Of a stretch of 64,000 nucleotides of DNA, positions 1 to 60,523 are shown in pieces. The position numbers were made by a program, and so were the translations under genes. The notes under the pieces are model-generated. The model saw only the letters and a list, made by a program, of their open reading frames with translations, had not been told where the DNA came from and ran no database searches. The DNA lies in assembly GCA_963681505.1 (NCBI GenBank), contig OY811977.1:4192352-4256351 (forward strand). Reading direction: 5' to 3'. The stretch is from Eunapius fragilis. Lineage: Eukaryota > Porifera > Demospongiae > Spongillida > Spongillidae. Numbering within the stretch: the stretch's first letter is position 1; every line of letters starts with the position of its first letter.

Positions 1-3000
1 CCAGCACTTCCTGCAACACAAGGTTTGGTTGTAACAACATGTACAGGGTTTGCATGACCGAATGTGCCCATCACAATCTGTTTGCAGAAAATAACCACAA
101 AGCCGAAGCAAGAAGCAAGAAGCAAGATTGCTGTATAAAATCTAATAGCTACATGTAAAATCCAAACGATAACTATCGTAATGCTGAGGTACTGAACAGC
201 GTCACATCATACATGGTGTACAGGCATACAAAGCAGATAATAATAACAATAACAAAGAACCGCTTCATTCCCAGGAAGCTGCACTGAAGTCTACCTGACG
301 GACGTTATTTTGTATAAAAAGCAGTGCAAACATGCCTACAGAGAAATATTAATGCAACCAACATGTATTAGACTGAGTATCAAAGGAAGTAAATGTTTAT
401 GTACATGTACCGCACTTAAAAAATAAAAAGCTTTACAGTCCAATGTGTGCAATCCAATGACACACAAGTACATGTACTGTATACATGTACCTCTAATGCA
501 ATTACAACATGTACATGTATGTATGGCATTAATGTACACCAGCACCACCTGTAGATGTACATATATGTACATGTACCTTAGCCTGCACATGCCCACATGC
601 CCAGGTGCAAATACAACAAAAGAAAGAGCCACTACAAAGTGTGCATGTGTACGTGAGTGTACAGGTGTGTACCTTGCAGGAGCATGGTGACCAGTGGTGT
701 TCGCGTGCTCTTTGTGGTCTGGGACACAGCCATTGCTCCTCTGTCGACAATCTCTTGCACCCGAGGCCCCCAGGGAATGATTCCTGTGAACATGAACTAC
801 TTATAAGGTCAGCACTGTAAAGCCACTAACATACACAACCAAAACCACGGCATTTCCTTTTCATACATATGTACTGTACGTGGAACCAACCATACAATTA
901 GTACTTGCAATGATGTACATGTATATGATTTATTTCTATTTTCAATCCCCATGCCCCAAACATGCTAATGTGACTTTTGTGCATGCACATGTACACACTA
1001 TGTAAGCACATACATTGTACATGTACATGTAACAGTACGGACGCGTACATACAGTATGCATACTACGGTATGCAGACATACACATTCAACAGCACAGGCA
1101 CATTATAAAACACTGACCGTTGAACACATAGCTGTTCAGCTGTTTGTCACTGACACCAAATGCCGGCTTGACATCATGCTGGAAGGCAAAGTCAAAGTCT
1201 TCTTTCGTCACCTTGAGTGCCTCTGCCTCTTTGAACCCAACAGACACCTTCTCCGCTGCCTATGTACAGAGCACACATTTTGATACCAATCACATGTACA
1301 TGTACATACAGTGTGTGTACATGCATACAGCATTTTGCCCCTTACATGGTTGAACATAACAAACTTCCATTGAATAAACCATTCAAATGCACATCTGCAC
1401 ATTCTACATATACATGTACATGTAACAGAAGTGAATCCTGTACAATAAAGGTGCAACTACATACTCATACATAAACACATGAAAGTGGCAGTGAACTGTG
1501 AATGTACGGACATTATTACTTATCAAGTACTGTATACACATGTACAGTACGATATTCCAATCCTTTAAAAAGCATACACAACACAGTGTTTGTACACACA
1601 GTACATGTACAAATAAACTGCAATCTGGTTCGACGCATTTCAAAGAAGCAAAACGTACTTTGGCGAGCTTGTTCATTGCAGTGGCCTGGGCACTGCGCAC
1701 CAGACCCTCCAACTCAGCCCCACTGAAGTTCTTGGTCCGTTGGGCCCACAGGGGCAGGTCCACATCGCTCCCAAGCTTGCCGTTCTTAGCCATCAGCTTT
1801 GTGTGGATCTTCAGGATGGCCAGACGACCATCCTCGTCAGGGAGTCCTGCATAGTACAAGGCATTACTGATCCCCTGCAGCCCATGTGCACACTGCAGTA
1901 TACAGTTAATGGTAGTCACTGTTTACTGCATTGATCAACACCTACATGACCATCCTAATTAATGCCCCACCCCTGATTACACCCCTAACTGTAAATGAAA
2001 CTTTTGTAAATTATGTAACATGTACAGCTGGTGGCAATGGGCTATCGGAAGTCTCGCTAGAGACTTCCATATAGGTTTTGACCCCGACTATGAATTTAAT
2101 CAAAATCCCGCGACCCTACCGTAGCTTCGCTCCCAACGATTGGATCGTCTAACTTGTTGCGGCAATCGATCTAGAAGTCAAAACTGAGTAGTTTCGTTTT
2201 TGTTTCACGTCGTAGAACCGCGTGGTTGTCGAGAACGAAAAATACTGCTGTCCTCGTTCCCCTTCCAAAAATAATGGGCGGGTCGTCTGCTTCTGCTTCT
2301 TCTTCTTCTTGGGAACTCATAACTCGGGACAGGAACACTTTTAAGAAATGAAAATTGCACCAATAGCTTTAGAATTTGCTGGAGGACTCGCTTTGATACA
2401 AAAACGCCTAAAAGCCTATATACGGTCTTACCAATTCTAATTAAGCAAAGGTACCTAGAAAATTTTCACAATACGTCTGGATTGAATTAAATCGGTTAAA
2501 TGAAAGGGTGGAAACCTGCGATGCAACAGTGATTTGGGTGTTAAAAAATTAAAGAAACAAGTAAATAAAAACATTCTCTCTGAGAAAGTTGGTGGGATAT
2601 AGGTTTTTCAGGCAAATAGTATACTGGTGTAAAAAGCAAGGAAACAAGTTTCATCAGAAGGGAAAATGTAATAGTCCTATATTTAGCACAGAAACAGCAT
2701 ATGCCTTAGTCGAAGTGTGCTAAATATAGGACTATTACATTTTCCCTTCTGATGAAACTTGTTTCCTTGCTTTTTACACCAGTATACTATTTGCCTGAAA
2801 AACCTATATCCCACCAACTTTCTCAGAGAGAATGTTTTTATTTACTTGTTCCAGTTTAAAATCGTACATAGGTACTGATGACTAATCTGCATACCACCGG
2901 ATAATAGATAGTAATCTAGTGGTTATCCGGAGGTATGCAGAGTATGTCATCAGTACACATGTACGATTTTAAACTGGAATAGCCCAATGCATACTACCGT

Positions 3001-6000
3001 GTATGTACAGTATGGCAACATTTTGCAATGTCAAACACCAGCCAGCACACACCTATCTCCATCTGGACCTCCATACGACCAGGACGGAGGAGAGCTTCAT
3101 CGATCATGTCCTTGCGGTTGGTCATCCCAATGACCAGAATGTTGTTGAGTTGTTCCACACCATCCATCTGGGGGTGGGGGGGGGGGTGGGGGGGTGGAAG
3201 CAAATGTAAGTGGAGTGTCAAGTGATCCCGTGATGGCTGCCATGGTGACTACTACAACAACTACTATTGTGACCACTTCATCTGGCTACATGTACATGTA
3301 CATATGTGGGATACCATCAAGATTCATCACACAGGTAAGTAGCACATGAAGGTACATGTACATTGTAAGACATTGAGCAGCAAATACTTTACTGACTAAA
3401 ATTATCTTGTAAGATCACATAGGTAGGCTAGAATGAATGGTATAGGAACATATTGCCAGTTTATTTGTTTCATCCTACAGTGGACATGTACTCCTAAACA
3501 CAAAGCAATTACTGACACTATTGGTGCACGATGGAATCCAGTACCTTACCTTGGACAGGAGCTGGTTCACCACTGTGTCATGGACACCTGTGCTTCCACT
3601 CTGGAGAGAAAAGGAAACCACTTCATGTCTAAATTAGGTTTGTACCAACATACAATCACACATCCATCCTCCGTAGGTAAACAGTACAACCACCACCAGC
3701 CAATAGTACTACTACCAGCCAACAGTACTACCACCTGACCACCAGCCAACAGTACCACCACCAGCCAACAATACTACCACCAGCCAACAGTACTACCACC
3801 TGACCTCCAGCCAACAGTACCACCACCAACAGTACCACCACCAACAGTACTACCACCAGCCAACACCACCAGCCAACAGTACTACCACCAGCCAACAACA
3901 CTACCGCCTGACCACCAGCCAACAGTACTACCATCTGACCACCAGCCAACAGTACTACCACCTGACCACCAACCAACAGTACTACCACCTGACCTCCAGC
4001 CAACAGTACCACCACCAACAGTACCACCACCAACAGTACTACCACCAGCCAACACCACCAGCCAACAATACTACCACCTACCACCAGCCAACAGTACCAC
4101 CACCAGCCAACAATACTACCACCAGCCAACAGTACTACCACCTGACCTCCAGCCAACAGTACCACCACCAACAGTACCACCACCAACAGTACTACCACCA
4201 GCCAACACCACCAGCCAACAATACTACCACCTACCACCAGCCAACAGTACTACCACCAGCCAACAACACTACCGCCTGACCACCAGCCAACAGTACTACC
4301 ATCTGACCACCAGCCAACAGTACTACCACCTGACCACCAACCAACAGTACTACCACCTGACCTCCAGCCAACAGTACCACCACCAACAGTACCACCACCA
4401 ACAGTACTACCACCAGCCAACACCACCAGCCAACAATACTACCACCTACCACCAACCAACAGTACTACCACCTGACCACCAGCCAACAGTAGTACCACCA
4501 GCCAACAGTAGTACCACCAGCCAACAACACTACCACCAGCCAACAGTACTACCGCCTGACCACCAGCCAACAGTAGTACCACCTGACCACCAACCAACAG
4601 TACTACCACCTGACCACCAGCCAACAGTACTACCACCTGACCACCAACCAACAGTACTACCACCTGACCATCAGCCAACAGTAGTACCACCAGCCAACAG
4701 TAGTACCACCAGCCAACAGTACTACCACCAGGGTCATTCCATGGGCTGTCAGGAATGAATTGGACAGCACCCCTCAGATTTGTGTGCAATTTATCATATT
4801 TGCTTGATCTAATATGGATGTTACTTTAACGCATTAATTTTTAAAATCGCACGAGTGGTTTACGAATTAACACCGTCATGAATAATTAATTGTTTTCCAC
4901 TTTGAAGACTCATAACTCCCTACTCACAGAACGTGTATGGCTATTGTTGGCATCAAATCGAAGCTCTCTTAGTGTACAATCCGACTATAATATGTTTCTG
5001 TGGGAGAGGCGAAAGGGTTAACGAATAAATGTTTATACAGCACGGTTTTCAATATTTAGGTCACTTGCAGGGTGATACTCAAGAATTTTGTTTTTGTTTA
5101 TGAAAACTGTTCATTGTCCTTACATTTTACAAAAATAAAAAGTCTGAGTATCAGCTAGTTCTGGGAACTGCAGAGGGTTAAAGGGAAAGACGCCATTTTT
5201 AATTTCTTCATGGTTGATTTTATCACTAATGAGAAGCAAGTGTTGTTTAGATACGTCTCAAGGGTATTACATAATACTGTCCCCAACTATCACAACAGTA
5301 AGAAAGGGCGTTGGTAATTTAAAAAATGATTTTTAGTACATCGAATTGCGCATTAATTGGAAACCGTTACTAAGCCTTCTCATAATGGGATCGTTGCGTG
5401 CTCGTTATTACTGTCATAAGTGGTTAAAGCTCAACATTTCTTTTGATTGGAAGTAAAAAGGAACAACGAGGTTTAAATGAACCGGCGGTGAGACCTATTC
5501 AACCGGCTCAAGAAGTGGTGGTCCCCCAACCTGTTTATTCTCCGGATGACGGCGTACCGGAGATCCCACCCGCGGCACATCCCCGATCCCCGGTACGCCG
5601 TCATCCGGCGTATAAACAGGTTGAGGGACCACCACTTCTTGAGCCGGTTGAATAGGTCTCACCGCCGGTTCATTTAAACCTCGTTGTTCCTTTTTACTTC
5701 CAATCAAAAGAAATGTTGAGCTTTAACCACTTATGACAGTAATAACGAGCACGCAACGATCCCATTATGAGAAGGCTTAGTAACGGTTTCCAATTAATGC
5801 GCAATTCGATGTACTAAAAATCATTTTTTAAATTACCAACGCCCTTTCTTACTGTTGTGATAGTTGGGGACAGTATTATGTAATACCCTTGAGACGTATC
5901 TAAACAACACTTGCTTCTCATTAGTGATAAAATCAACCATGAAGAAATTAAAAATGGCGTCTTGCCCTTTAACCCTCTGCAGTTCCCAGAACTAGCTGAT

Positions 6001-7369
6001 ACTCAGACTTTTTATTTTTGTAAAATGTAAGGACAATGAACAGTTTTCATAAACAAAAACAAAATTCTTGAGTATCACCCTGCAAGTGACCTAAATATTG
6101 AAAACCGTGCTGTATAAACATTTATTCGTTAACCCTTTCGCCTCTCCCACAGAAACATATTATAGTCGGATTGTACACTAAGAGAGCTTCGATTTGATGC
6201 CAACAATAGCCATACACGTTCTGTGAGTAGGGAGTTATGAGTCTTCAAAGTGGAAAACAATTAATTATTCATGACGGTGTTAATTCGTAAACCACTCGTG
6301 CGATTTTAAAAATTAATGCGTTAAAGTAACATCCATATTAGATCAAGCAAATATGATAAATTGCACACAAATCTGAGGGGTGCTGTCCAATTCATTCCTG
6401 ACAGCCCAAGGAATGACCCACCAGCCAACAGTAGTACCACCAGCCAACAGTACTACCACCAGCCAACAGTACTACCACCTGACCACCAGCCAACAGCACT
6501 CTCAATAGCTCACCAAGGACCCACGCTGGCGACATATGGCATCTATCTCATCAAAGATGATGATATGAAGAGGGCTGTTGATGCCTAGCTTCTTCTCATC
6601 TACTTCAGCTTCAGTAAACAAGTTCCTACATGTAGTTGATAAGCATAATAACAAGCCCTTAAATGCCCTTTACACGTACATCTACATTATATGTGCATAC
6701 ACGACCATGTGAACATACATGTATGCAAAACTACATGTAGTAACATAATTACACACAACCTTGGATTTTTGCAAGTGGTATACTATTCATGTTGAAATTG
6801 TAAGCTGTGGGTACAATCACTTAAAACCCTTTAAGCCCGACATGCCTTGTTTAGCAATGTGTACGTGTGTGAGGGATCACCGTGCATACAAAGCATACAA
6901 CAGTCGGGGAAGGAGGGTACATCCGGACACAAATGATTGAGTGGATGTAAAAAAATAAGAAGTGTCTAACATCACGGGAAATACGCACTACTGGACATGG
7001 GTGGAGGACTCACCTCACATTGGCTTCTGACTCTCCAACATACTTATTGAGGATCTCTGAATATGAAAAACAACACTGACTTGAAATAAAATCAGCAAAT
7101 TTATGGACATGTACATGTAGCCCAGAATTTACCCTCAAAACAAGAGCCTGGTTTACAAGTGTGTCTAGACAAGAACTACATGTACTGTCAGATAGGACCA
7201 TACATGACCATGTACACTCAAATAAATGGGCACTCCTGCACATGTGTTATAGTAAACAATAACACAGCGTACATACATACATACATACATACATACATAC
7301 ATACATACATACATACATACATACATACATACATACATACATACATACATACATACATACATACATACA

Positions 7370-17442: not shown

Positions 17443-18174
17443 ATCGGAAGTCTCGCTAGAGACTTTTGACCCCGACTATGAATTTAATTAAAATCCCGCG
17501 ACCCTACCATACTGACAGCTTCGCTCCCGACGATCGGATCGTCTAACTTGTTGCGGCAATCGATCTAGAAGTCAAAACTGAGTAATTTCGTTTTTGTTTC
17601 ACATCGTAGAACCGCGTGTTTGTCGAGAACGAAAAATACTGCTGTCCTCGTTCCCCTTCCAAAAATAATGGGCGGGTCGTCTGCTTCTGCTTCTGCTTCT
17701 TCTTGGGAACTCATAACTCGGGACAGGAACACTTTTAAGCAATGAAAATTGCACCAATAGCTTTAGAATTTGCTGGAGGACTCGCCTTAGTCGACGTTAG
17801 GCTTTGATACACAAAAGCCTAAAAGCCTATATACGGTCTTATCAATTCTAATTAAGCAAAGGTACCTAGAACAATACGTCTGGATTGAATTAAATCGGTT
17901 AAATAAAAGGGGGAAACCTGCGATGCAACAGTGATTTGGGTGTTAAAAAATTAAGGAAACAAGTAAATAAAAACATTCTCTCTGAGAAAGTTGGTGGGAT
18001 ATAGGTTTTGCAGGCAAATAGTGTACTGGTGTAAAAAGCAAGGAAATAAGTTTTATCAGAAGGGAAAATGTAATAGTCCTATATTTAGCACAGAAACAGC
18101 ATATGCCTTAGTCGAATTGTGCTAAATATAGGACTATTACATTTTCCCTTCTGTTTCCTTGCTTTTTACACCAG
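17443..18174 (+). mobile_element. Hairpin-segment-palindrome unit, copy B (truncated)
   Basis: Close relative of copy A: ATC plus hairpin GGAAGTCTCGCTAGAGACTT, the ACCCCGACTATGAATTTAAT segment, then CAAGTAAATAAAAACATT and the palindrome. The right arm has lost an internal piece and ends abruptly at TTTTTACACCAG, abutting the hAT remnant. The hairpin has also lost its last bases and the adjoining ATATAGG block. Confidence 0.8.
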
Positions 18175-30199: not shown

Positions 30200-31006
30200 T
30201 AGTCTCGTACCCAGACCCACCATGACGTAAGCGTTTATCGCTTACAGTATAAACACTACGACAGGTGGGTCTGGGAATATCGTCAAACATTTTTGTTCCA
30301 GCGTCCCTGATTTTTGAGGACGGAAGTTTACATCTAAATTTAGATATACGTAATGCGCAATGCCGGTCCGTGATTAAGCCACCCCACCTTCCTCCCCACC
30401 TTCCCTACGCAAGCCACCCCACCTTCCTACGCTAGCCTCCCTACCTTCCCTACGCTAGCCTCCCCACCTTCCTACGCTAGCCTCTCAACCTTCCCTACGC
30501 TAGCCTCCCCACCTTCCTACGCTAGCCTCTCAACCTTCCCTACGCTAGCCTCCCCACCTTCCCTACGCTAGCCTCCCCACCTTTCCTACACTAGGAGGCT
30601 AGCGTAAGGAAGGTGGGGAGGCTAGCGTAGGGAAGGTGGGGAGGCTAGCGTAGGGAAGGTGGAGAGGCTAGAGTAGGGAAGGTGGGGAGGCTAGCGTAGG
30701 GAAGGTGGGGAGGCTAGCGTAGGAAGGTGGGGAGGCTAGCGTAGGGAAGGTAGGGAGGCTATAGCGTAGGAAGGTGGGGTGGCTTGCGTAGGGAAGGTGG
30801 GGAGGCTAGCGTAGGAAGGTGGGGTGGCTTAATCACGGACCGGCATTGCGCATTACGTATATCTAAATTTAGATGTAAACTTCCGTCCTCAAAAATCAGG
30901 GACGCTGGAACAAAAATGTTTGACGATATTCCCAGACCCACCTGTCGTAGTGTTTATACTGTAAGCGATAAACGCTTACGTCATGGTGGGTCTGGGTACG
31001 AGACTA
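30200..31006. mobile_element. TAGTCTC-family palindromic MITE inserted in the methyltransferase gene
   Basis: Ends TAGTCTCGTACCC and GGGTACGAGACTA. A perfect 9-bp target duplication GTTAGGGGT lies at 30191-30199 and 31007-31015. The arms carry GACGTAAGCGTTTATCGC, as in the 60-kb copy. The inner part is a tandem array of about 23-bp units (GCTAGCCTCCCCACCTTCCC) on the left arm, with the inverted array on the right, so the element is both tandem-repetitive and palindromic. Confidence 0.93.
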
Positions 31007-31854: not shown

Positions 31855-32534
31855 ATCTGAACCTGCGGCAGCATGTTCAATATAGAATTGATTGATTGAG
31901 GGTTGATGAATGCCATTAATAAAACTTCACTAGCGTCTGGAGGGACAACGGAGAAACGGATCGCTTATCTCTTTATCGCGATGGAATGAGAGCACAACGA
32001 TCTACAGTTCTACTTTGGTTCTGTGTCACAAAACGGTGTGGTAGAGAAACAATTTCCTGTTTCTCGTGCCCAGTCCTAAAATAATTCTCCATCGTCGTCG
32101 TCGTCGTCTTCTTCTTAGGAAGGTATAACTCGAGCTAGGAACGGTTTAGAAGGACGGGATAGTATCAATCGCTTCGAAATTTACCGGCACGTTATCCTTA
32201 CATGTCATATAGACACATATCAAATTCTATTTAATAAGGTATATAACAAGTAAATAAAAACATTCTCTAACGAGAGAGTTGTTGGTATATAGGATTGACC
32301 AATGGTGGTGTAAAAAGCATGGAAACAAGAGTGACAGAAATATTATTGGAAAATTGAAATAGGGTTATATTTAGCCCATTATTCAGGCATGTGTGTTGTA
32401 TTGTGTGCTAAATATAGGCCTATTTCAATTTCCAATAATATTTCTGTCACTCTTGTTTCCATGCTTTTTACACCACCATTGGTCAATCCTATATACCAAC
32501 AACTCTCTCGTTAGAGAATGTTTTTATTTACTTG
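31855..32534 (+). mobile_element. Hairpin-segment-palindrome unit, copy C
   Basis: AT(C)TGAACCTGCGGCAG starts the hairpin end. The conserved segment follows with a GTC/CTT triplet tract (TCGTCGTCGTCGTCTTCTTC), then the palindrome at 32247-32534 bounded by CAAGTAAATAAA/TTTATTTACTTG. The hairpin-plus-segment is duplicated in inverse at 34427-34827. Confidence 0.8.
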
Positions 32535-32613
32535 TTTCATAAGTTTTTTTTCACCCTGTCATAGCAGTATCATAGTCAATAATCAAATGTAGGAAGAGGA
32601 TGGATGATCCCCT

Positions 32614-32883
32614 TTATCTCTTAATGCAAGAACAAATAACTTTAATAGTACTGATGGTGGTGGGGGCAGCAATGATGGTGCAGGCAGGAGCGCCAGTGGG
32701 GGCAGCGCTGGTGGTGCCGGTGGGAGTAGCTGCTGATAGTGGTGTGGGCAGTGCTGCTGGTGGTGGTGGCAGAAGCGGGGCTTCTGGAGGTGGCGGGGTG
32801 AAGGGGAGAGGAGTTGGAGGATGAATGTACTCTTCCTCCTCCGACCCCTCATTGGTGAAAAACCCGCGAAGGTCGTCAGCCAT
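32614..32883 (-). CDS. Acidic/proline-rich mobile-element protein (89 aa)
   Basis: Begins MADDLRGFFTNEGSEEEE, followed by a long proline-, alanine- and threonine-rich tail, and ends CSCIKR. It has no recognisable domain or signal peptide. An inverted, frameshifted copy lies at 37072-37380, and the shared flank continues for several hundred bp upstream of both start codons, so it belongs to the repeat family. Conservation of the start (DLRGFF.NEGSEEEE) argues it was once translated. Function unknown. Confidence 0.45.
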   Translation of the reverse strand: MADDLRGFFTNEGSEEEEYIHPPTPLPFTPPPPEAPLLPPPPAALPTPLSAATPTGTTSAAPTGAPACTIIAAPTTISTIKVICSCIKR

Positions 32884-33716
32884 CTACATATACGTAACAG
32901 AGAGTATGATTAAATTTTTACTTCTTTATTTAGTGCAGAGCCTTTACACATCTACATAGAGTATTATTAAATTTTTACCTCTTTTTGCTAGCGGATGAGT
33001 GGCTTTTATACCTGCAAAGCCTTAACACGTGTGCAGACTGTGCTATAATTATATTAGTCCAATTCCATCATATTAATGACAGGGAGGGAAGGTGTATGCG
33101 TGTCAGTTGTGCTAAAATTCTATTGGTCAAATTTGATCCAGTAAAAATGGTCCCATCTAAACATGGAGGTGTAGCCTACATGCAGTTAAGTTGTATAGAT
33201 GGGTAGTGTGGGAACTAAGGAAGTGAACTACATGGCAGTACATGGCAGCATGTAGATCGATCGATAAGGATATGTTCTCAGGTGAGGTCCTATCTGTGGA
33301 CAGGGTCTGCAGCTTTATAAGTGTGGGCAGAAGGTCTGTTTTTATTTCATTACATAAATGTGAGTGTGCTGCTAGAAGTACCTGATGGTGGCTTATCTTA
33401 CTTACTGCTGCACAGACAGATCACTACCCCTAAGAATAGCTTTTTCAAGACCACCATTATACTCCATTGGTGCATGAGATTTGGGTTTATACAAGGAGTA
33501 GCTATATGGGAAAAGGATATAGTTGCAGCTATTTAGTTCTCAGCCCTTGCAACTGTAACTATATTCATACAGTTGCAACATTCACGGCTAGACAAGGAAG
33601 TCTTCAGATAAGGAAGCTTTATCAGATTAAAACAATAGACACTACTGTACACACAGTTGAGTCACCATGCATGCTTTACATGTAAAGTGAATGGTTTTGT
33701 GCAGATCCGTGCTGTA

Positions 33717-33797
33717 CATAGTCGGGCGGGCCCTACTACCCACAGGTAGTAGGGTGACAAACCCGACCAAACGCGGTAGTAGGGCCGCCCGACTATG
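33717..33797. mobile_element. 81-bp hairpin element (CATAGTCGGGCGG)
   Basis: CATAGTCGGGCGGGCCCTAC pairs with GTAGGGCCGCCCGACTATG around an inner inverted repeat CTACTACC/GGTAGTAG. A related element is at 35486-35564 in the inverted copy of this region. Confidence 0.65.
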
Positions 33798-33854
33798 CTG
33801 TACAAATGCTGCATGCACAGCTTTTTAATGTTAATACAACATGCCATAACATAC

Positions 33855-34331
33855 CTTTGGGTGGTAGTGGTAGTTCTGTGACCCCTGCGATACCGCGTCC
33901 TCTCGGCAGCACATTTAGCCAATCAGACAGCGGGATCATTTCAATACCGTCTCCTTTCAGATGCTTTAATGGTAGCTGATATTTCTCCCTATTAGCAGCG
34001 CGATTTCCCTCGAGGTCCTCTTCATATCGCCGCCTTTAGTTTTAGCAGCACGGTTCTCCTCGAGGTTCTTCATATCGCCGCCTTTGAGCAGCACGGTTCT
34101 CCTTGGGGTCCTCTTCTTATCGCCACCTTTTAGCAGATCGCTTAGATTCAATATCGGCCTTGTAGCTGTCGCGTACAGAGGCCTTCTTCATTTCGGGATC
34201 GGCCTTGTAGCTGTCGCATACAGAGGCCTTCTTTTTTTTGGGATTGGCCTTGTAGAGCGCTCGGGCTTTAGCTTTGTTCTCGTATTGCTTTGGAGGTATT
34301 CCGCTCGTTGCTTAGATCTCTTCTTTTGCAT
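33855..34331 (-). pseudogene. RY-repeat basic protein, first exon, decayed copy
   Basis: The minus strand starts ATG at 34331 (MQKKRSKQRAEYL) and carries repeats of the form RxRYEEDxEENRAAK, changing frame several times. It ends with a donor GTATGT after CACCCAAAG at 33855, the same donor as in the twin copy at 34933-35428. It is the inverted partner of that copy, the two being head to head around the segment at 34427-34827. Confidence 0.55.
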
Positions 34332-34426
34332 TTTTAGAAAAAGAACTTCACTATTAGCCAACGTAACAACGAATATATTAAACTGGATAAATTTAGTGCA
34401 GGTTAGAGTATTTATAACTGCCTAAA

Positions 34427-34827
34427 ATTATTAATAAATAGAACTTGATATATGTATGTCTATATGACATGTAAGGATAACGTGCCGGTAAATTTCGAAG
34501 CGATTGGTACTATTCCCGTCCTCCAAAACCGTTCCTAGCTCGAGTTATACCTTCCTAAGAAGAAGAAGAAGACGACGACGACGACGATGGAGAATTATTT
34601 TGGGACTGGGCACGAGAAACAGGAAATTGTTTGTTTCTCTATAACCACACCGTTTTATGACACGGAACAAACGTAGAACTGTAGATCGTTGTGCTCTCAT
34701 TCCATCGCGATAAAGAGATAAGCGATCCGTTTCTCCGTTGTCCCTCCAGACGCTAGTGAAGTTTTATTAATGACATTCATCAACCCTCAATCAATCCTAT
34801 ATTGAACCTGCTGCCGCAGGTTCAGAT
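34427..34827 (-). mobile_element. Hairpin-segment copy without palindrome (P-prime)
   Basis: Inverted copy of the 31855-32240 segment, ending in hairpin GAACCTGCTGCCGCAGGTTC then AGAT. It lies exactly between two divergent copies of the RY-repeat ORF; both its flanks carry GCAGTTATAAATACTCTAACC-like sequence in inverse, likely the old promoter (TATAAATA) of that ORF. Six bases ATAGAT occur outside both 31857 and 34825. Confidence 0.7.
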
Positions 34828-34932
34828 AGATAATTTTAGGCAGTATAAATACTCTAACCTGCACTAAATATATTTGGTGTTCCTATCGCCAGTTTAGTTG
34901 TAACTTTGGCTAGTGATGTTGTTTTTCTAAAA

Positions 34933-35428
34933 ATGCCTTCGCGTAATCAAATGAAGAGATCTAAGCAAAGAGCGGAATACCTCCAAAAGCAAGACGAGAA
35001 CAAAGCTAAAGCCCGAGCGTTCTACAAGGCCGATCCCGAAAAGAAGAAGGCCTCTGTACGCGACAGTTACAACGCAGATATTGAATCTAAGCGATCTGCT
35101 AAAAGGCAGCGATATGAAGAGGACCCGAGGAGAACCATGCTGCTAAAAGGCGGAGATATGAAGAGGACCTTGAGGAGAACCGTGCTGCTAAAAGGCGGCG
35201 ATATGAAGAGGACCTCGAGGAGAACCATGCTGTTAAAAGGCGGCGATATGAAGAGGACCTCGAGGGAAACCGCGCTGCTAATAGGCAGAAATACGAGGAC
35301 AATTCAGCTGCCATTAAAGCATCTAAAAGGAGTCGGTATTGGAATGACCCCGCTGTCCGATTGGCTAAATGTGCTTCCGAGAGGACGCGGTACCGTAAGG
35401 GTCACAGAACTACCACTACCACCCAAAG
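34933..35428 (+). pseudogene. RY-repeat basic protein, first exon, frameshifted
   Basis: Starts MPSRNQMKRSKQRAEYLQKQ and continues with FYKADPEKKKASVRDSYNAD. Four copies of a ~21-residue unit RRYEEDLEENRAAK follow, then NRQKYEDNSAAIKASK and RSRYWNDPAVRLAKCASE. A one-base deletion at about 35126 (GACCCGAGG against GACCTTGAGG in sister repeats) breaks the frame. A good donor GTATGT follows CCAAAG at 35428, so more exons once existed. From memory such Arg/Tyr repeats occur at the start of large invertebrate transposon proteins; no helicase or nuclease is visible here. Confidence 0.55.
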
Positions 35429-35485
35429 GTATGTTACGGCATGTTGTATTAACATTAAAAAGCTGTGCATGCAACATTTGTAGAG

Positions 35486-35564
35486 CATAGTCGGGCGGTG
35501 TTTGGTCGGGCTTGTCACCCTACTACCTGACCAAACGCGGTAGTATAGGGCCCCCCCGACTATG
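35486..35564. mobile_element. 79-bp hairpin element (CATAGTCGGGCGG), second copy
   Basis: CATAGTCGGGCGG and CCCCCCCGACTATG ends, with TTGGTCGGGCTTGTCACCCT inside. Partner of 33717-33797. Confidence 0.6.
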
Positions 35565-35723
35565 TACAGTACGGATCTGCACAAAACCATTCACTTCACA
35601 TGTAAAGCATGCATGGTGTGTACAGTAGTGTCTATTGTTTTAATCTGATGTATAAAAAGGCTTCCTTATTTGAAGGCTTCCTTACCATGTACATGTACAA
35701 TGTATGTTGCAACTATATGAATA

Positions 35724-36658
35724 CAAGTAAAGAAAAACATTCTCTAACGAGAAAGTTGGTGGGATATAGGAATTGGAGGCAATGGTGGTGTAAAAAGGAG
35801 GGGAACAAGGTTTTGAGAAAAGGGTAAATGAGATAAAAATCCTATATTTAGCACTTCTTTTGGTTGTTGCATGTACATGTGCTAAATAAAGGATTTTTAT
35901 CTCATTTACCCTTTTCTCAAAACCCTGTTCCCCTCCTTTTTACACCACCATTGCCTCCAATTCCTATATCCCACCAACTTTCTCGTTAGAGAATGTTTTT
36001 CTTTACTTGTTTCCTCTATTTTTTAATTATCAAATATTAATACTGGCAAGTGCGCCCCTCCCCCCCCCCCCCCCCCTCCGCTTCAATTACCTTCACGAGC
36101 AGACGCCCGCTTTTGTTTGGAATCACTGTAAGGAACGCGGGAGAATTCTAACACGTCGTCTCTCGCGTCGTCTGCTCTCCTCTTTTGTTTGCACAATTCT
36201 AAATATACGAAATGTCGCCATGGGAACGCTTCTATTTACCACTACGCATTACGTAATGATTACGTATGTCAGTTTTATGCTTTATTCATACATCTGATAC
36301 TTGAAGATGGCCTTCCAGGAGATTCTAAAGCGATTGGTATAATTGGCGCTCTTTAAAACCATTCCTATCCGGAGTTATACTCACCCGAGAAGAAGAAGAA
36401 AACGACGACGACGACGACGACGGAGAAGATTTGGCCTGGGGACGAGGTAAAACACGAACGTTTTTGTTCTCTTAAAGGAAACAGTTTGAAGACTGGAACA
36501 AAACATTAAAATGAAAGTCTTTGCCTTCTGGTTCGATAGGAACAAAGAGCTAAACTATCCGTTTCTTAGTACGCGAGTTATACGCGGGTCGCGTTTTTTT
36601 AATGATATTCACGACCCGGGTCAATTCCTATATAGGAACTACTATCGTAGTTCCTGAT
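35724..36658 (-). mobile_element. Hairpin-segment-palindrome unit, copy D
   Basis: Reversed relative to A: palindrome at 35724-36009 (CAAGTAAAGAAA..TTTCTTTACTTG), spacer with a C-run, conserved segment with GAC triplets at 36398-36420, and hairpin AGGAACTACTATCGTAGTTCCT followed by GAT. It separates two blocks that are contiguous in the sister region at 33.3 kb, so it behaves as a discrete insert of about 935 bp. Confidence 0.8.
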
Positions 36659-37071
36659 AACTCAAAAGGTTGTTACTAGATCTGCCAGTGCCCACAGATA
36701 TAAACATATCCTTATTAATCTTCATGGTGCCATGTTATCCCAGATCTACATGCTGTCATGTAGTTCACTTCCTGTGTTCCCACACTATCCATCTTTACTG
36801 CATGGTAGGCTACATTTCCAAGTTTAGATTGAAGCATTTTCAAATTTGACTAATAATATTTTAGCACATGCCGTTAATATGGTGGAATTGGACCAATAGA
36901 ATTATAGCACAGTCTGCACACGTGTTAAGGTATAAAAGTCAGTCATGCACCCGCTGAATTATAGTGCACTTTGCAAAAAGAGGTAAAAATTTTAATAATG
37001 CTCTGTGTGGATTCACGTGTAAACTTGCTTGAAAAAAGAAAAACATCATACTCTCTGTCACGTACATGTAG

Positions 37072-37380
37072 ATGGTAGCTGAAGACCTTCGTGGTTTTTT
37101 ATTAATAATGAGGGGTCGGAGGAGGAAGAGGATGACATTCATCCTCCGACTCCTCTCCCCTTCACCCCGCGAGAAGAAGCCCCGCTGCCCACACCACCAC
37201 CAGCAGCGATACCCCCGCCGCCACCACCAGCTGCGCTCCCGCCGGTACCATCGCTGCCTGTGCTCCCTCCCTGGCCTGCATGGCCACTGCCACCCAGGCT
37301 CAACCCAGCATGGCGGGGAGGTCGGGGAGGAGGACGTCCCAGCAGGAGACGAGGGCGCGGGCGGGGACAAATCGTTATAA
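37072..37380 (+). pseudogene. Acidic/proline-rich mobile-element protein, frameshifted copy
   Basis: The start MVAEDLRGF matches the ORF at 32883-32614, but extra bases in TTTTTTATTAATAATGAG shift the frame. In the correct frame it reads NEGSEEEEDDIHPPTPLPFT, then proline-rich. The flank upstream (36680-37060) is an inverted copy of 32900-33300. Confidence 0.55.
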
Positions 37381-37528
37381 ATACTACTAATTCGTACTAT
37401 TATAATTATTATTAAAGTTATTTGTTATTGTACTAAGAGATAAAGGGGATCGTCCAAATTCTATATGCTCTTCCTACATTTCATTGACTACAATACTGCT
37501 ATGACAGGGTGAAAAAAAACCTATGAAA

Positions 37529-39428
37529 CAAGTAAATAAAAACATTCTCTAACGAGAGAGTTGTTGGTATATAGGATTGACCAATGGTGGTGTAAAAAGC
37601 ACGGAAACGAGAGTGACAGAAATTTTACTTGAAATTGAAATAGGCCTATATTTAGCACACTCACAATATAACAGCGCCTGCCTGAGTAATGGGCTAAATA
37701 TAGTCCTATTTCGATTTTGAGACAATCCATGGTGTAGCGCATCACAACTTTTGCCACAACATTTTTTTATTTTTCAGTAATCTAATAGGGCTTATAGTCA
37801 TTAGTTATTATGCAGAGTTTCACTTTCTGATTCACTTCGGTTAATTGGCAATATTTCCTCAACTTTGTAGATGCCATGAAATTATGTGATTACTATCAAT
37901 GTTTTGCAAAGCTGCAGTAATGTGTCAAAATAGTTTTAATTGAAACTGTTTATAACACTACAATGCACTCACCTCATGGGTGTACACACATGTGAGATAA
38001 CCTTAATAGATTTAATATTATGACTAGTTGTTTTACATTTGTCTAATCATCTCAAAACACCATAATTCATTTTTATATATCAATTTTACCACGTGACGAG
38101 ATAGGTTGTGAGGTAGTTAATTCATTAAAATTAATTTTGGGTATCCGTTCCGCTGGTAAGTTATAAATGGATTTATGTCAAAAACTTGATGTTTCTTTGA
38201 ACTGCCGCTTGACCACAAAGTTTACGTTTACACAGACGTAACGATGCTATTAATGTCTAATGTCCTGGGCGTGCTCCGCGGTGCACGTTTGTACATCGCG
38301 GGGTACGCAAAAACAAAGGTTTTTGCATTCCGCCGTTTCAGCATGCTAGTGAAGTTTGACTGTTATGCCACGTTGTATAATTCCTTATCTGCTTGGGCTG
38401 AAGCTTTGAAAGCCTAGTACCTTTCGCTGCTGATACAACAAGTCGCCACAGCGGAGGTACACTTTACGGCGAGTGTACGCGGTAATTGAAAAATAATAAC
38501 AACGTACGTACCGGAAATTTCGCGTACCTCCGCTGTGACAAGTTGCTGTAAGAGCAGCGAAAGGTACTATAGGCTTTTAAAGCTTCAGCCCAAGTAGATA
38601 AGGACTTACACAATGTGGCAAAACAGTCAAACTTCACTAGAATGCTGAAACGGCGGAATGCAAAAAACTTTGTTTTGCGTACCCCGCGGTGTACAAACGT
38701 GCACCGCGAAGCGCGCCCAGGACATTAGACATTAAAGCAATGGAACTACGCTAAAAGGGCGTAGCCCAAGTTGCGAAGGATGTGCGCTAAGCTTCGTACG
38801 CCTATAAACATGCATGACGCTTCGATTCCGATACAACCTCTAAGCGTAGTACGTGCTAATATTTATTTAAACATATACATGTGCACAAAAGATCACACCA
38901 TGTGAAAGATAAACGTGGTATTGCTTTTTTTTAAAGCAATATTACGTACATGGTGTCGTGTAAATGGTTTTGAGATAATTAGACAAGTGTAAAACAACTA
39001 GTCATAATATTAAACCTATTAAGGTTATCTCACAATACATACATGTGTGTACACCCATGAGGTGAGTGCATTGTAGTGTTATAAACAGTTTCAATTATAA
39101 CTATTTTGACACATTACTACAGCTTTGCACAACAGGAATAGTAATCACATAATTTCATGGCATCTACAAAGTTGATGAAATATTGCCAATTAACCGAAGT
39201 GAATCAGAAAGTGAAACTCTGCATAATAACTAATCTCTATAAGCCCTATTAGGTTAATGAACAATAAAAAAGATTTCAGAATGTTGTGGCAAAAGTTGTG
39301 ATGCTCTACCATGGATTGTCTCTTTTCCAGTAAAATTTCTGTCACTCTTGTTTCCGTGCTTTTACACCACTATTGGTCAATCCTATATACCAACAACTCT
39401 CTCATTAGAGAATGTTTTTATTTACTTG
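37529..39428. mobile_element. Palindrome E of the CAAGTAAAT family, split by an insertion
   Basis: Ends CAAGTAAATAAA and TTTATTTACTTG. The left part continues to CTATTTCGATTTT at 37718, and the right arm resumes at TTTTCCAGTAAAATTTC (39323). With one TTTT removed the two halves rebuild the normal ~290-bp palindrome. Confidence 0.85.
37719..39322. mobile_element. 1.6-kb palindromic element nested in palindrome E
   Basis: Begins GAGACAATCCATGG and ends CCATGGATTGTCTC, with TTTT duplicated at 37715-37718 and 39323-39326. The arms (for example TTGGCAATATTTCCTCAAC versus GTTGATGAAATATTGCCAA) are inverted copies with moderate divergence, meeting near 38480. No long ORF, so non-autonomous. Confidence 0.88.
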
Positions 39429-41173
39429 TATTATTTGCCTTTGTCCAATTAACTTTGGCCTGAATAATTATTACTATAATTTGACAACTTGGCAAGAGCA
39501 TACATGTATGTGCGGCTTTATTCAACTAATTGCAAGGTGAAACAATAGGAATCTTGTACTTTCGTATTCATGATATATGAAACACAGAATCTGTACGTGT
39601 GCACTCCTTTGAATCAATATTTACACGACATGTAGTTGCTTTTGTCTAGTAGTCGGTGTTTTCTTGCAGCTGAGCAAGGCAACTTTGTGATTCTGCACTG
39701 TTTTGACGTGAATGCACGCACATCCATGTCATTGTTGATATCCATTTTTTACCCTTTGTTCCTTTAGTCATTTTCTGGTATTACGCTTCTGACATCAATA
39801 TCTTCCATTGTGCTTAGGACTGATTTATTTTTCGTTGTGAGTACCCTATACATTCCATATGCATCTCACTGAACCCATCTTCACTGCAACCTTTATGGAT
39901 ATATCATTTGTGGCATTTCGATTCCCCACTAAAAAAAAGTCTTGTTTACTGCATGCCTCTTCTTGGTTATCTCTCCTGAAAACGTCTTGATCACTGCATC
40001 TCTCTTATTATATGTGAAATCCACACACCACTTTGCTTGGTCATAATCACTTGTTTGGAGAATATTCAGCAACCATTGGCATTCATTGGCTACACTGTCG
40101 TCTTCACCAGATACCTGCATTACAGGTTTCTTCATGCCCTCTATCCGATCCAATAAACAACAAAGTGACCATCATCATGATATCCTTAACCACTTCTTCA
40201 ACCACACTTGCGCCTATCACTCCTATAATAGAAAAATTCCTTATCATGGTATTTGACCAATCTTAAGTTCATATGGTGTGAGGTTTATGGTACCATTCAC
40301 AGTTGTAATGCACAGTAGTATATATTGGCCTGCATCAAAGACAATTTCCGTAATTAACTTTCACATATGTAAATTAGACTTTCACTGAACAAATGGCACC
40401 AGCTCAGGTTGTCTGTACCCTTCATGTGAGTAGAGACAATGTTCAGTTAGTTCCTTTAATTGCTCAATAAGATCCTCAGCAATTTACATTCATCACTTCC
40501 CCCTGGGCTTCCACCAGCCTCCCCTGGCCATCCTGTCACAATGCTTCAGTATCATGGCGATTATCTGATTGCAAGATTTTTGGGGTACACTTGTACAAAG
40601 TTAGCAAACATTTAGTTGACAATGCAATGGCAACTTCGGCTGCCAAAATTTTGCACCAATGTTGGAACAATACATGAATTTTTGCCCCATAGTCTATATC
40701 CAATCAACTTGCAGTGTCTGACAGGCTTAGGCCTCATATCAATCTAAAAATCCAAACAATAAGCTACACAAAAAAATCGTTTTCTACCCTGACCTCTAAT
40801 GATGATACAATTGGTCTCAGTGAGACTGTGGCTTTCTTGCATGCATCACAAATAAGACACAGTTGTACAAACTAACATACGCACCACTATAAACACGTAG
40901 ATCATGACTAAAGTGCAGCCGAAATATTGGGCTGCTTCAAAACTACAATTATACATGATTTTCAATTGGTTCATATTGAAAGGTCACATAACTATAATCA
41001 TTTATATGAACTTTGTTCAGTTTATTCCAATCACTTCATAGCAGTCCTGTCCATCTGATTTCACCTCACCATATGCATCACATGTCTTCATGGCAATTTC
41101 ATCACTGAGGAATAAGTATGTGTGTTCAAACTTTGGATGAATGCATGTAATTGTTCAAAATTTTTACCAGTTG
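39429..41173. other. No gene recognised
   Basis: AT-rich sequence. A 74-codon minus frame at 40153-39929 (MDRIEGMKKPVMQVSGEDDS start) is the only notable one; I do not recognise it. Confidence 0.5.
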
Positions 41174-53116: not shown

Positions 53117-54420
53117 TTGTGCTGCCAGATCAACCCACATTTTTGAGTAGCTAGTCAAGTGCAGATGCTCATACTTTAAATTTGGAACCAATGATAGACC
53201 AACATCATCTCCATGTGATCGATTCTTCATGTACAGTTCTTTCAGATGGTCCCATGAGATATCCATTCCATTGCGCTATACGATGAATAATAATGCAAGA
53301 TGAATGTGTTGCAGAAAAATCTTAAATAGCCCATAACTTTCATTTGGGGTTTGCCCAGCAATTTCCTGTGGTCTTCAATAGGTGAGGAGGATCCGACAGA
53401 AAGAAGATGAAGCATCTTTCACCATAAGGGTTTATAACTTTGTTGACAGGTGCTTTTGAACCTGTGTGATGAAGACAAAAACTTCGAGGACTAACCATCG
53501 CAATAAAGAGCCAGGACTATAAACCCCAGGTTCTCAAGGCGAAACATGGCATTCCATATGAGTAATAATAGTAATAAAATAATGCATGTCAAATACCAGA
53601 TTACTGAAGTATGAGTTACATGAGTGCTTGTCAAATGTAAGGCCTTGACGTATATGCATCTCATCAAAAATGATGATGACACACTTGTCTCTCTCCACAC
53701 ATGATGGTAGCTTAGCAACAGTGAACAGGTACTGGTCAAATTGAGTAGAAAACCCTACTACTGCTTTGGTGTGATGGGTGTAGTCCCTTAGCATTCGTTG
53801 GGATGGGAGTTTGATTATATCCGATTCCCTTATCATTGCATATGCCAAGCTGGACAGATGACGAAGGTAGAGGCACCACTGCACCATGACGGGATCCCAT
53901 CGCATCTGCCGTGCATCATTCAAAGAAGCAGCCTGCATCTGTGTCTTCCAAAACACACGTCCAAAAGTACCAGGTGAATGACTGCCTCAGTATTGCATTG
54001 CATGCATAATCTGCAATTAACAGATCATCATGAAGAGACTACTGTCCACAGAAATGCCACTTTCCTCAGTCATTGCTTGCAATTTCATTTGGAGATTGGT
54101 TATTTGACATTGGCAGGCTACTCATAGCTTATGTGCTTGAGGCAACGGATACACTTATCGGGACTACTTAAGTGTGAGAATGATGCATTACTGCTAGGGT
54201 CAGTGTAGCTAGTATCAGCGTCAAGTTTCACATGACAGCTTAGTAAGGCCCTTAGGGTGCTCCGATATGATGTACACCGGTTGCAGCGCTGGTCACTGTT
54301 TTCATCTGACATGACTAGGAGCTCACACACAGCATGGCAAATGGTAGAATGTATAATATCCAGATATGCAACACACTCTGTGCCAGTATATAATGCATAT
54401 GGATCACCCCAATACATATT
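53117..54420 (-). pseudogene. P-element/THAP9-like transposase remnant
   Basis: Minus-strand blocks in transposase order. About 54420-54120 gives HAVCELLVMSDENSDQRCNR then CTSYRSTLRAL and LSSPDKCIRCL. Exon 53938-53620 gives MQAASLNDARQMRWDPVM, SQRMLRDYTHH and VIIIFDEMHIRQGLTFDKHS with donor GTAACT. Exon 53275-53117 gives GMDISWDHLKELYMKN, GLSLVPNLKYEHLHLTSYSK and LAAQ with donor GTAAGA. These match, from family memory, the catalytic-core start and GTP-insertion-like region of P-element/THAP9-type transposases. The part joining the second and third blocks and the C-terminus are absent. Possible upstream exons at 54830-54990 and 55250-55490 are unproven. Confidence 0.6.
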
Positions 54421-55924: not shown

Positions 55925-55936
55925 CGCGCGCACACA

Positions 55937-56010
<74 letters not shown>

Positions 56011-56032
56011 CACACACACGCATGCACACACA
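55925..56032. repeat. (CA)n microsatellite
   Basis: About 105 bp of CA dinucleotides with a few CG interruptions, just left of the right duplication copy. Confidence 0.95.
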
Positions 56033-56091
56033 CATGTACGCAACACACATATGCTTTACAGTTACTTCTTTTGCAGACTATGCATACCTTC

Positions 56092-58115: not shown

Positions 58116-59511
58116 AATATGTATAGCCACTCCTATTGCAGCATTGCTGATCCCTCCCAAATAGTCACTCTCCTTACATCATGTACTGTCTAGGTAACAT
58201 GCATGTTGCCTGCAAAAGTAATAGCAGCAACCCGACAAGTATGTTGAGACCCCAGCACGATAGTAGACATTCCCCTGTGAACAGGAAGCAGGATCGAGGT
58301 TGAGTGGAAGAAAGGGGGAAATGTGTTAGGGAGAGGGGGAGGACGAGTTTACGTGTATAAATGGTTATCAGTATTAGTGCAGGGAGAGCGCTGTACATAT
58401 GGATGTTTAGTTATTACCATAAAGTATTCAGTCAGCATTGATTCGTCAGTTGTGCATCATTAGATCTATCAATAATCCACTCCTCCATAATACTCTATAC
58501 ATTGAGACCAGATGGGCTTGTACAGTCATTTAGAGACATGCTGCAAGCCGAGTTATGCATCTCCTGGCCACACCAATCTATACACGATGCAGATAATTAT
58601 TGATGTTACATCACATCAGGGATGCACTGAATGTAACTAGATGGGTTAGCATTACATTTTAGAGATTTGGAGAGGGTATAGTTATTATAATAGGGAAAGT
58701 GTTCTCAAAGGGTGCATGTAATGAGACTCAGCACTCGAAAAGCAAAGCAGTGCTGTACATAAACGTTATTGTGTGCATGAAGGATTTTCAGCCATATGCT
58801 GTGGTGTTAATTAAGGTGTAGGTCCATCCTGAAAGGTAACACAATAAACAATAGACCATTTGGTTCGTTTCATTCATCTGGCACTTTTATGCCTGTGGAA
58901 GCACTAAGTGCATGACATGAATGGGCTAGATCAGCATGACATCAGTTCCAAATGCATGCAGTACATATGGCTGAAAACCAGCTGCAAGGGTACGTCTACT
59001 ACGTACTACAATGACCATAACAGATTAGAAGGCCAGCTCCACCTGAGTTGATCTAAAATAAAACCAATGCCAGTATTTGTGTTTTTGTTTTTAGCGGTAT
59101 TTGCTTGAAACTTGCGATTTATAATTGCATACAACCAGTAGTATAAGCAATTAACAAAGGTACATGCCTGGTGGAGGTAACACCAGGCCTTTGAACAAAA
59201 CAAGGATAATGGGAGCATGGAGCAAAGAAGCCCAAGAGGCTAGCTTGGCCACCAGACGGAACGAACCAAAGCCAAAGGTGTTTGCCGGACTTTACGGCCG
59301 CCTCCTCAATTAACCTGACCCAGGTACGCTGCAACGCAAGGGTTCTCCGTAAAACTGATTTGTGGCTATTATACATAAGTAGTTATTCATGTATGTGTAC
59401 GTGTATATGGAACTTTTAATAGATTTAACAAGGTGTTTAGTATGGGGAGTGTACAAGTTGCTAATGGCAGCCGCTGGTTATGTCAAAGGTTTTGAGCAAA
59501 TCAGTTAACAA
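58116..59511. other. No gene recognised
   Basis: A plus-strand frame near 59160-59310 (MPGGGNTRPLNKTRIMGAWS start) and its minus shadow are open but unrecognised. The remainder is AT-rich. Confidence 0.5.
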
Positions 59512-59669
59512 TGGTTTTCGGTACTACAGTGTAGATGAGACTACAGAGACAGAGAAATTTGTAGCCATGTTTGACAAATTCTTTGATTGTCTTAATGTCT
59601 GAAGTATTACAAAACACTTAGCTAAACGTAAGCCAGATTTACAACCTTATCATTCAATTTCAAATGCAA

Positions 59670-60523
59670 CAAGTAAATAAAAACATTCTCTACGAGAAAG
59701 TTGGTGGGATATAGGATTTGATTATGACATTGGTGGTGTAAAAAGCAAGGAAACAAGGTCTTATCAGAAGGGAAAATGTCATAGTCCTATATTTAGCACA
59801 TTTCTAGGACATGTGTTGTTTGTGTGCTAAATATAGGACTATGACATTTTCCCTTCTGATAAGACCTTGTTTCCTTGCTTTTTACACCACCAATGTCATA
59901 ATCAAATCCTATATCCCACCAACTTTCTCGTAGAGAATGTTTTTATTTACTTGTTTTCTTTATTTTTTTTCATACCCATTTAATTATACAAGACATTAGT
60001 CTCGTACCCAGACCGTCTATGACGTAAGCGATTATCGCTGTAAACAGTATAATCACTACGTCCATACGTATGGACGTAGTGTTTACAGCGATAATCGCTT
60101 ACGTCATAGACGGTCTGGGTACGAGACTAACAAGACATAGGAGGCTGATAGTCGATTGTTTATCAAAGTATTATATTATATAAAAGCGAGTCCTCCAGCC
60201 GATTCTGAAGCTATTGGTGAAATTTTCATCGCTTAGAAATGTTCCTGTCCTGAGTTATGCGGGGGCAAGAAGGAGAAGACGACCCGCCCCTTGTTCCGAG
60301 ACTGGGTACGAGGACGGGCAGTACACTCTTGTTCTCAACAACCACGCGGTTCAGCGACATGAAACAAAAACGAAACTACTCATTTTTGACTTCTAGATCG
60401 ATTGCTAAAACAAGCTACACGACCCGATCGTCGGGAGTGTTGTTACAGACGGGTCGCGTTTTTTTAATGACATTCATAGTCGGGGTCAAATCCTATATGG
60501 AAGTTTCTAACGAAACTTCCGAT
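59670..60523 (-). mobile_element. Hairpin-segment-palindrome unit, copy F
   Basis: Palindrome at 59670-59953 (CAAGTAAATAAA..TTTATTTACTTG), spacer carrying a nested MITE, the conserved segment (TCCTCCAGCCGATTCTGAAG on), and the end hairpin GGAAGTTTCTAACGAAACTTCC then GAT. Same order as copy D, reverse of A. It lies inside the P-like transposase remnant. Confidence 0.82.
59997..60129. mobile_element. TAGTCTC-family MITE, 133 bp, recent
   Basis: Almost perfect palindrome from TAGTCTCGTACCCAGACC to GGTCTGGGTACGAGACTA. A perfect 9-bp target duplication ACAAGACAT lies at 59988-59996 and 60130-60138. It is nested in the spacer of copy F, so it is younger than F. Confidence 0.95.

Follow-up and report, generated by a model that had tools for sequence, protein, structure and literature searches.

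A window of 64,000 nucleotides from the demosponge Eunapius fragilis (GenBank assembly GCA_963681505.1, contig OY811977.1, forward-strand positions 4,192,352 to 4,256,351) contains small mobile units with a hairpin at one end and a long palindrome at the other. An initial annotation had described five such copies sharing a single order of parts. BLAST comparison within the window revealed segments of one kind at all five places; the common order holds for three of them (c1, c4 and c5), which are complete, but not for c2, which is damaged, or for c3, which combines two nested elements. The long palindrome measures 286 to 293 bp in the complete copies (host T included), and the triplet tract reported for the middle segment is a CTT/GTC tract within their conserved leader. 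Read with the hairpin to the left, an element begins with TC, a 9-bp stem with a 4-nt loop and ATATAGG, and finishes with a 3' hairpin and CTTG; a host A stands before it and a host T after it. The GAT previously seen beyond the hairpin consists of the host A and the element's TC, read on the opposite strand. The features are as follows.

2045–2848, plus strand: c1, complete non-autonomous Helitron running from 5'-TC to CTTG-3' between a host A and a host T; empty site exact
2047–2068, plus strand: 5' hairpin of c1, GGAAGTCTC-GCTA-GAGACTTCC, adjoining the 5'-TC; from the sequence and from covariation over 27 distinct 5' ends
2069–2400, plus strand: ATATAGG repeat and leader of c1 with CTT triplet tract; full-length Helitrons carry relatives of this segment ahead of ORF0
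2558–2848, plus strand: 3' palindrome of c1 (2557–2849 counted with the host T), arms 130/130 identical, ending CTTG at the putative 3' nick site
17444–18174, plus strand: c2, damaged copy; last hairpin bases and ATATAGG lost, 3' arm truncated
31856–39428, plus strand: Helitron relic of the TGAACCTGC family; 5' hairpin, leader, ORF0, pieces of the 3' untranslated region and an interrupted 3' palindrome
32247–34826, minus strand: apparently nested Helitron relic; 5' hairpin at 34826, leader, ORF0 remnant, 3' palindrome at 32247–32535
34858–35490, plus strand: ORF0 (MPSRNQMKRSKQRAEYLQ...) of the plus-strand relic, related to ORF0 of a full-length element (L062:1580–2227)
35724–36657, minus strand: c4, complete non-autonomous copy, hairpin AGGAACTAC-GATA-GTAGTTCCT
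37528–39429, plus strand: 3' palindrome of the plus-strand relic (host T included), with a 1.6-kb inverted-repeat element (37719–39322) in its loop
59670–60522, minus strand: c5, complete non-autonomous copy
59670–59953, minus strand: 3' palindrome of c5, arms 130/130 identical

Three nested insertions lie inside the plus-strand relic. The order and homology of the parts suggest that the minus-strand relic is one of them; its flank matches the uninterrupted leader inexactly, with about 13 extra nt in the host. Copy c3 takes its hairpin and leader (31856–32237) from the plus-strand relic and its palindrome from the minus-strand one. The 1.6-kb element in the loop of the plus-strand palindrome possesses inverted repeats of about 340 bp (90%) and an inner palindrome.

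In the genome searched (219 Mb, 24 contigs), c5 has 40 near-full matches at ≥97% identity, itself included; scoring covered the best 40 of 3196 first-look candidates. Within c5 lies a palindromic insert of about 135 bp (window 59996–60130) resembling a miniature inverted-repeat transposable element (MITE), with ATGTCTTG on both flanks, by eye a possible 8-bp target duplication; the insert (query 421–555) also matched inside c5-family copies. No match to c5 DNA was found in phages, and no Rfam family reached the gathering threshold in the window.

Exact ends and the insertion site

The limits of the units are given by empty sites. Copy c1 is inserted into one arm of an inverted-repeat element (window about 2020–3000, arms with GGGCTATTCCAGTTTAAAATCGTACAT), and the other arm holds the exact empty site, GGGCTA^TTCCAG. 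This empty arm reads TGGGCTATTCCAGTTTAAAATCGTACAT and is identical to the joined c1 flanks over 28 nt. A second copy of 1404 bp, at locus L065, splits the open reading frame (ORF) of another Helitron at GGCTTTA^TAAAAA, where the intact ORF of L062 reads GGCTTTATAAAAA. Within the retrieved DNA, a search with 29 c5 copies gave a junction-crossing match for three (L028, L021 and L026; six alignments in all), the best L028 alignment being exact at the junction (CTGCCTA^TATATAAC). Insertion is between A and T, without target duplication. Both ends were recognised in 29 of 30 loci by a scan that required the A and the T, and the base preceding the A was T in 21 of these 29. The end scans, including the genome-wide 5' pattern, also required the 5'-TC, which was seen independently at the c1 and L065 empty-site junctions. 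At the 3' end, CTTG was found in c1, c4, c5, L065, L066 and L068, and the terminus of c1 and c5 is GAGAATGTTTTTATTTACTTG.

Since these exact empty sites are those of whole units, the hairpin end and the palindrome end moved together and without target duplication. The initial annotation had named empty sites showing separate movement of the two ends, or standard terminal inverted repeats with a target duplication, as findings that would speak against a single unit. Neither was found, the exception being the paired palindromes described below that have no exact 5' hairpin in the right place, and at the tested empty sites there were no terminal inverted repeats with target duplication of the kind that mark a terminal-inverted-repeat transposon or MITE.

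The hairpin sequence had been noted to differ between copies while pairing is kept, and this proved well founded: in 27 different 5' ends, chosen by eye among 100 listed places, all nine stem pairs show changes on both sides. Three of the 27 rows look like chance matches and were retained. Pairing was found in 88.5% of cells, compared with 65.2% in shuffles and 31–48% when the arms were slid, and the covariation score was 0.668, compared with 0.254 in shuffles and a maximum of 0.190 when slid; the shuffling ignores relatedness, and the count of pair types (18) was not above that of the shuffles (18.4). All six lineages detected without requiring this motif have a GNNA loop closed by C-G (c1 GCTA, c3/L067 GGCA, c4 GATA, c5 GTTA, L062 GCGA and L064 GTTA); the genome-wide 5' pattern required GNNA and so cannot count as evidence of it. 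In DNA, C-GNNA-G loops have unusual stability. Folding was predicted at −8.1 to −9.0 kcal/mol for the three 5' hairpins folded and at −3.6 kcal/mol for the local 3' hairpin of c5.

Beginning 24 nt into the element, outside the 5' hairpin, is an 11–13-nt ATATAGG repeat that recurs inverted before the 3' hairpin. It reads ATATAGGATTTGA in c5, ATATAGGTTTT in c1, ATATAGGAATTG in c4 and ATATAGGAATC in the element assigned to L062 and L066, and in these four lineages the letters beyond ATATAGG vary from one lineage to another and match between the two ends of each.

The end patterns occur far beyond chance. Genome-wide, the 5' pattern TC-N9-GNNA-N9-ATATAGG gave 3358 matches (75 for the reversed control), the 3' pattern 4663 (0 in the control) and the palindrome-centre pattern 3226 on each strand (4 in the control).

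Full-length Helitrons with the same ends

A search for autonomous copies, as the initial annotation had advised, showed that full-length Helitrons with RepHel carry the same ends as the small units. The genome contains 91 matches to Helitron_like_N in a Pfam search. At L062, a 5' end at 1046 (TCGGAACCTACGCGAGTAGGTTCCATATAGG) is followed by a leader, an ORF0 like that at window 34858–35490 and a 1977-aa ORF with Helitron_like_N and PIF1 (PF14214, 93.5 bits; PF05970, 72 bits); a match to OTU fell below the cut-off (21.0 versus 23.3 bits). The ORF contains the Rep motifs PHYHVLLW (HUH) and YVTGY (YxxxY), and HUH and YxxxY motifs are common to its relatives. These elements thus combine an HUH nuclease with two tyrosines, a Pif1-type helicase and the ends of the small units, which places them in the Helitron superfamily. 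No endonuclease domain is among the eight Pfam families of L062, the one protein scanned. We take the palindrome at L066 1683–1967 as the 3' end of the L062 element because it is the next palindrome downstream and scanning revealed no other such 5' end between them; the element would then total 10.5 kb (L062 from 1046, L066 to 1966).

Loci L064 and L067 possess 5' ends of the same form. At the DNA level, the ORFs of L063 and L057 share about 66% identity; the L063 ORF is followed by a palindrome that likewise ends CTTG|T (L068 1046–1348), and the hairpin scan did not find the L063 5' end. In the small units, the conserved middle segment is a relative of the leader that precedes ORF0. Across the Rep region, the Helitron proteins are 90% identical to proteins of Ephydatia muelleri, which points to a freshwater sponge or a close relative as the probable host; no relatives of this region were found in genome_contigs (15 stretches fit the pattern, none confirmed) or in viral_contigs.

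Three further observations concern these loci. By eye, the full-length element may hold an extra ORF, with an acidic start and proline-rich tandem repeats, past the RepHel ORF and ahead of the 3' palindrome (L066, about 970–1500). A minisatellite of about 2 kb lies downstream of the L064 RepHel ORF (L069, reverse strand, about 790–2700). A second, distant Helitron lineage was met at L061 (C9:2926300–2936200), where a 1277-aa frame matches Helitron_like_N at 220 bits and a motif scan of 9.9 kb found none of the ends described here.

Arms and loop of the 3' palindrome

The palindrome arms end flush with CTTG, and its folding is predicted at −155.7 kcal/mol, compared with −23.3 for shuffles. Within a copy, the arms are 130/130 identical in c1, c5, L065mite, L066auto, L068auto and L007b, 127/131 in c3, 128/130 in c4, 127/130 in L065host; in L018b, a decayed copy, the figure is 81/119. 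Arms of different copies are 57–94% identical, or 99% for c1 and L007b, which belong to the same family. Both arms of each copy group together in a tree of arms, except for one L065host arm that stands beside c3.

Pairs of copies were then compared by counting alignment columns that differ in both arms or in one arm only, and all 16 pairs run are reported here. The counts (both/one) were 20/0 for c1-c5, 25/2 for c5-c4, 31/0 for c5-L066, 32/0 for c5-L074, 59/0 for c5-L068, 7/0 for L065mite-L066, 1/0 for c1-L007b, 11/3 for c3-L074, 10/3 for L065host-L074 and 4/6 for c3-L065host. The six pairs within the c4 family gave 3–6 both-arm and 3–14 one-arm differences, highest with L075. Among 29 young c5 copies (L017 having been dropped as a duplicate of L016), one-arm variants numbered 12, each private to a single copy and none of them shared, and one variant was symmetric; a single position in the loop is variable (10 of the 29 copies). 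A copy that has been inserted is thus not under continual correction. Most simply read, changes that are inherited have been made symmetric and those that arise after insertion stay on one arm, and the matching of the arms is likely to be the trace of a passage through single-stranded DNA.

The loop occurs in two orientations. In the c4 family, it lies one way in c4_W and L077 and the other way in L072 and L075, with the same leader-palindrome junction in both (92–94% identity); use of the palindrome as a 3' end from either side, which could account for loop inversion too, was rejected for this family on account of that shared junction. In the TGAACCTGC family, the L065host loop is opposite to those of the plus-strand relic and nested relic of the window and of L074, and the loop at C1:2814428 is opposite to that of L074 (C1:634292), with 35 of 37 nt identical when inverted. 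Loops of the c5 type and the GAGAGTTAC type align only with one inverted, at a score reached by 0 of 2000 shuffles. Young families are uniform as far as sampled: 29/29 c5 copies, a sample chosen by best score and so disfavouring flipped copies, and, by the assignments of the survey described next, 6/6 of GAGAGTTAC and 3/3 of GGAAGTCTC/T. A survey of 51 of 52 palindrome centres (2294456 left out) assigned a hairpin to 30 by a nearest-hairpin rule, which mis-assigns where elements crowd: 363776, 1431222 and 1749936, with GAGAGTTAC-type loops, were given GGAAGTTTC hairpins, and 980066, with a TGAACCTGC-type loop, was given a AGGAACTAA hairpin. Seven c5-type loops were assigned to GGAAGTTTC hairpins on C1, of which six agree and one (1207012) is either reversed or mis-assigned. 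With orientation mixed in some lineages and uniform in young families, the loop therefore inverts, but not at every cycle.

Mechanism and relation to known systems

We propose, with a probability of roughly 0.8, that the units are non-autonomous Helitrons mobilised by the RepHel of full-length Helitrons in the same genome, and that the palindrome is re-perfected at each transposition. The non-cut-and-paste, rolling-circle type of movement that had been suggested is well supported by the RepHel elements with the same ends and by the clean insertion between A and T. By analogy with published work on Helitrons, the Rep domain would nick at A|TC and one strand would be displaced in the 5' to 3' direction, with recognition and nicking of the 3' end at CTTG|T. 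Helraiser has a 3' hairpin that acts as a termination signal (PMC4778049); from the present data, the unwound palindrome may form a larger version of that signal, folding into a stem of about 130 bp whose foot lies exactly at the 3' nick site and which would serve as a strong stop and cleavage signal. Mismatches between the arms could be corrected by mismatch repair of the stem or by template switching, such that each successful transposition would re-perfect the palindrome, and the loop would occasionally be inverted. Experiments on how a round of Helitron transposition ends, and on whether natural copies pass through single-stranded DNA, have been conducted mainly with one reconstructed bat element. 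If the proposal is correct, a palindrome that is re-perfected in mobile lineages and decays once inserted would be a natural, genome-scale record of the single-stranded stage, and tallies of two-arm against one-arm changes among dated copies would put this step to the test. The palindrome also offers a sharp end signature for locating such Helitrons elsewhere.

Several points weigh against this proposal. Transposition, nicking and the single-stranded intermediate are deduced here from sequence alone. Older copies show many one-arm differences (3–5 both-arm and 12–14 one-arm in the L075 pairs), which would fit decay after insertion, and the L018b arms are no more alike to each other than to c4. 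Symmetric change within one young family is a single event. Among the c5 empty sites, that of L021 is close but not exact and that of L026 imperfect, the L026 alignment and three weaker L028 alignments being gapped or not keeping the T. The 3' end is CTTG and not the canonical CTRR. Lastly, 11 of 35 paired palindromes on C1:0–4.0 Mb lack an exact 5' hairpin in the right place, in a count that took in these 35 and left out 30 further single arms.

The arms might instead be corrected in the chromosome, by replication template switching or by gene conversion between the inverted arms, independently of transposition. Chromosomal correction is known in general for imperfect palindromes and would invert the loop too, but the private c5 variants, together with 18 mismatched columns in L075, show that one-arm variants persist after insertion, and we consider this explanation unlikely. 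It is also conceivable, if improbable, that the palindrome is a self-templating end, in which the 3'-OH left by the Rep nick, paired at the foot of the 130-bp hairpin, is extended or repaired on itself. Hairpin-end replication, a variant of the rolling hairpin, would then stand beside or replace simple circle formation, with arm identity as its product and loop inversion as an occasional by-product.

A stricter rolling-hairpin scheme, in which synthesis starts from the 3'-OH of the folded palindrome and every cycle transfers the hairpin and copies it anew, as at parvovirus ends, would keep the arms related and flip the loop. In its favour, the c4 and TGAACCTGC families contain loops facing either way with respect to the 5' hairpin, c5-type and GAGAGTTAC-type loops face opposite ways, the c4-family junction is common to both orientations, and the palindrome sits flush at the 3' terminus. 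However, obligatory flipping predicts a mixture in every family while young families are uniform as sampled, and hairpin transfer swaps the arms without by itself making them identical. We doubt this scheme strongly, and an obligatory flip at each cycle was rejected on the uniform orientation of the young families; orientation is mixed in the c4 and TGAACCTGC families. Compensatory mutation under selection, without copying, could have shaped the 5' hairpin, which has singly mispaired members; as the sole cause of arm complementarity it is very unlikely, given the counts for L065mite-L066 and for c5-L068, the latter with shared indels, and given that a 130-bp stem should tolerate single mismatches.

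That the palindrome is a separate fold-back element or MITE chancing to adjoin the hairpin segment is hardly credible and was rejected on the c1 empty site: both c1 and the L065 copy entered as one unit, a palindrome of this kind terminates the L062/L066 element and the L065 host Helitron, and another follows the L063 ORF. The 11 palindromes mentioned above, with no exact hairpin in the right orientation within 13 kb, and 21 of 51 palindrome centres with no hairpin within 4.5 kb could be read in its favour. Against this, 17 of the 35 palindromes lie ≤1.5 kb from a correctly oriented hairpin (0.58 expected, maximum 4 in 500 shuffles), and in the retrieved DNA, which includes 30 loci obtained by a whole-element query, the leader lies within 1.5 kb of 44 of 51 palindrome stretches, the remaining seven being full-length ends (two), halves of one interrupted palindrome (two) or within 600 bp of the locus edge (three).

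On end features and domains, we file the elements as Helitrons whose ends are like those of Helitron2 and whose 3' end takes a new form. The earlier view that no described family has this pair of ends stands in part: two-hairpin ends with an inverted repeat are known in Helitron2 (PMC3627910), while no description of a long palindromic 3' end was recognised in the accessible parts of the open-licence literature searched. Helitron2 shares hairpins at both ends, short inverted repeats between the ends (the 3' one lying upstream of the 3' hairpin), a 5' hairpin that changes in a compensatory manner, RepHel and, in some families, the reported absence of target duplication (PMC3627910). It differs in that its asymmetric 8–15-nt repeats have the 5' member 0–2 nt from the end and within the hairpin (here 11–13 nt long and outside) and its target follows TTTT and not A^T (PMC3627910); here the 3' repeat and hairpin lie inside the palindrome of about 290 bp. 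Helitron1 and Helraiser share the 5'-TC, the A^T target, a short subterminal 3' hairpin and an HUH Rep with helicase; a 5' hairpin, an end-to-end inverted repeat and CTTG in place of CTRR set the present elements apart from Helitron1, and the Helraiser palindrome is described as 19 bp long, 11 nt from the end (PMC4778049).

Helentrons, HINE and DINE-1 are reported to possess subterminal inverted repeats, palindromes at both ends, OTU proteins and, in some non-autonomous copies, micro- or minisatellites, but their target is TT (PMC4067079), and the endonuclease domain that is fused to RepHel in Helentrons was not found in L062. FoHeli1/2 of Fusarium resemble the present elements in a TC start with a 5' hairpin, inverted repeats, hairpins at both ends and an AT-type target, and differ in a 3' end of ATTTT with a short hairpin; for Chaetomium, the available text describes imperfect palindromes overlapping the repeats and does not mention a long 3' palindrome (PMC5148889). 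Parvoviruses likewise have a terminal palindrome processed by the replication nuclease and two loop orientations at one end (PMC1185569), whereas here the orientation is nearly fixed in each young family and the long palindrome is at one end only.

Other repeats and frames were observed in the window. Beside a CCACCAGCCAACAGTACTA tandem array, two 835-nt arms at 4731–6419, 99% complementary and 19 nt apart, form a very large near-perfect palindrome. At 30200–31006, terminal inverted repeats of 194 nt are 100% complementary and enclose tandem units of about 23 nt; the ends resemble the small palindrome in c5. A 150-aa frame on the minus strand at 53534–53986 (FDEMHIRQGLTFDKHSC) resembles THAP/P-element-type transposases.

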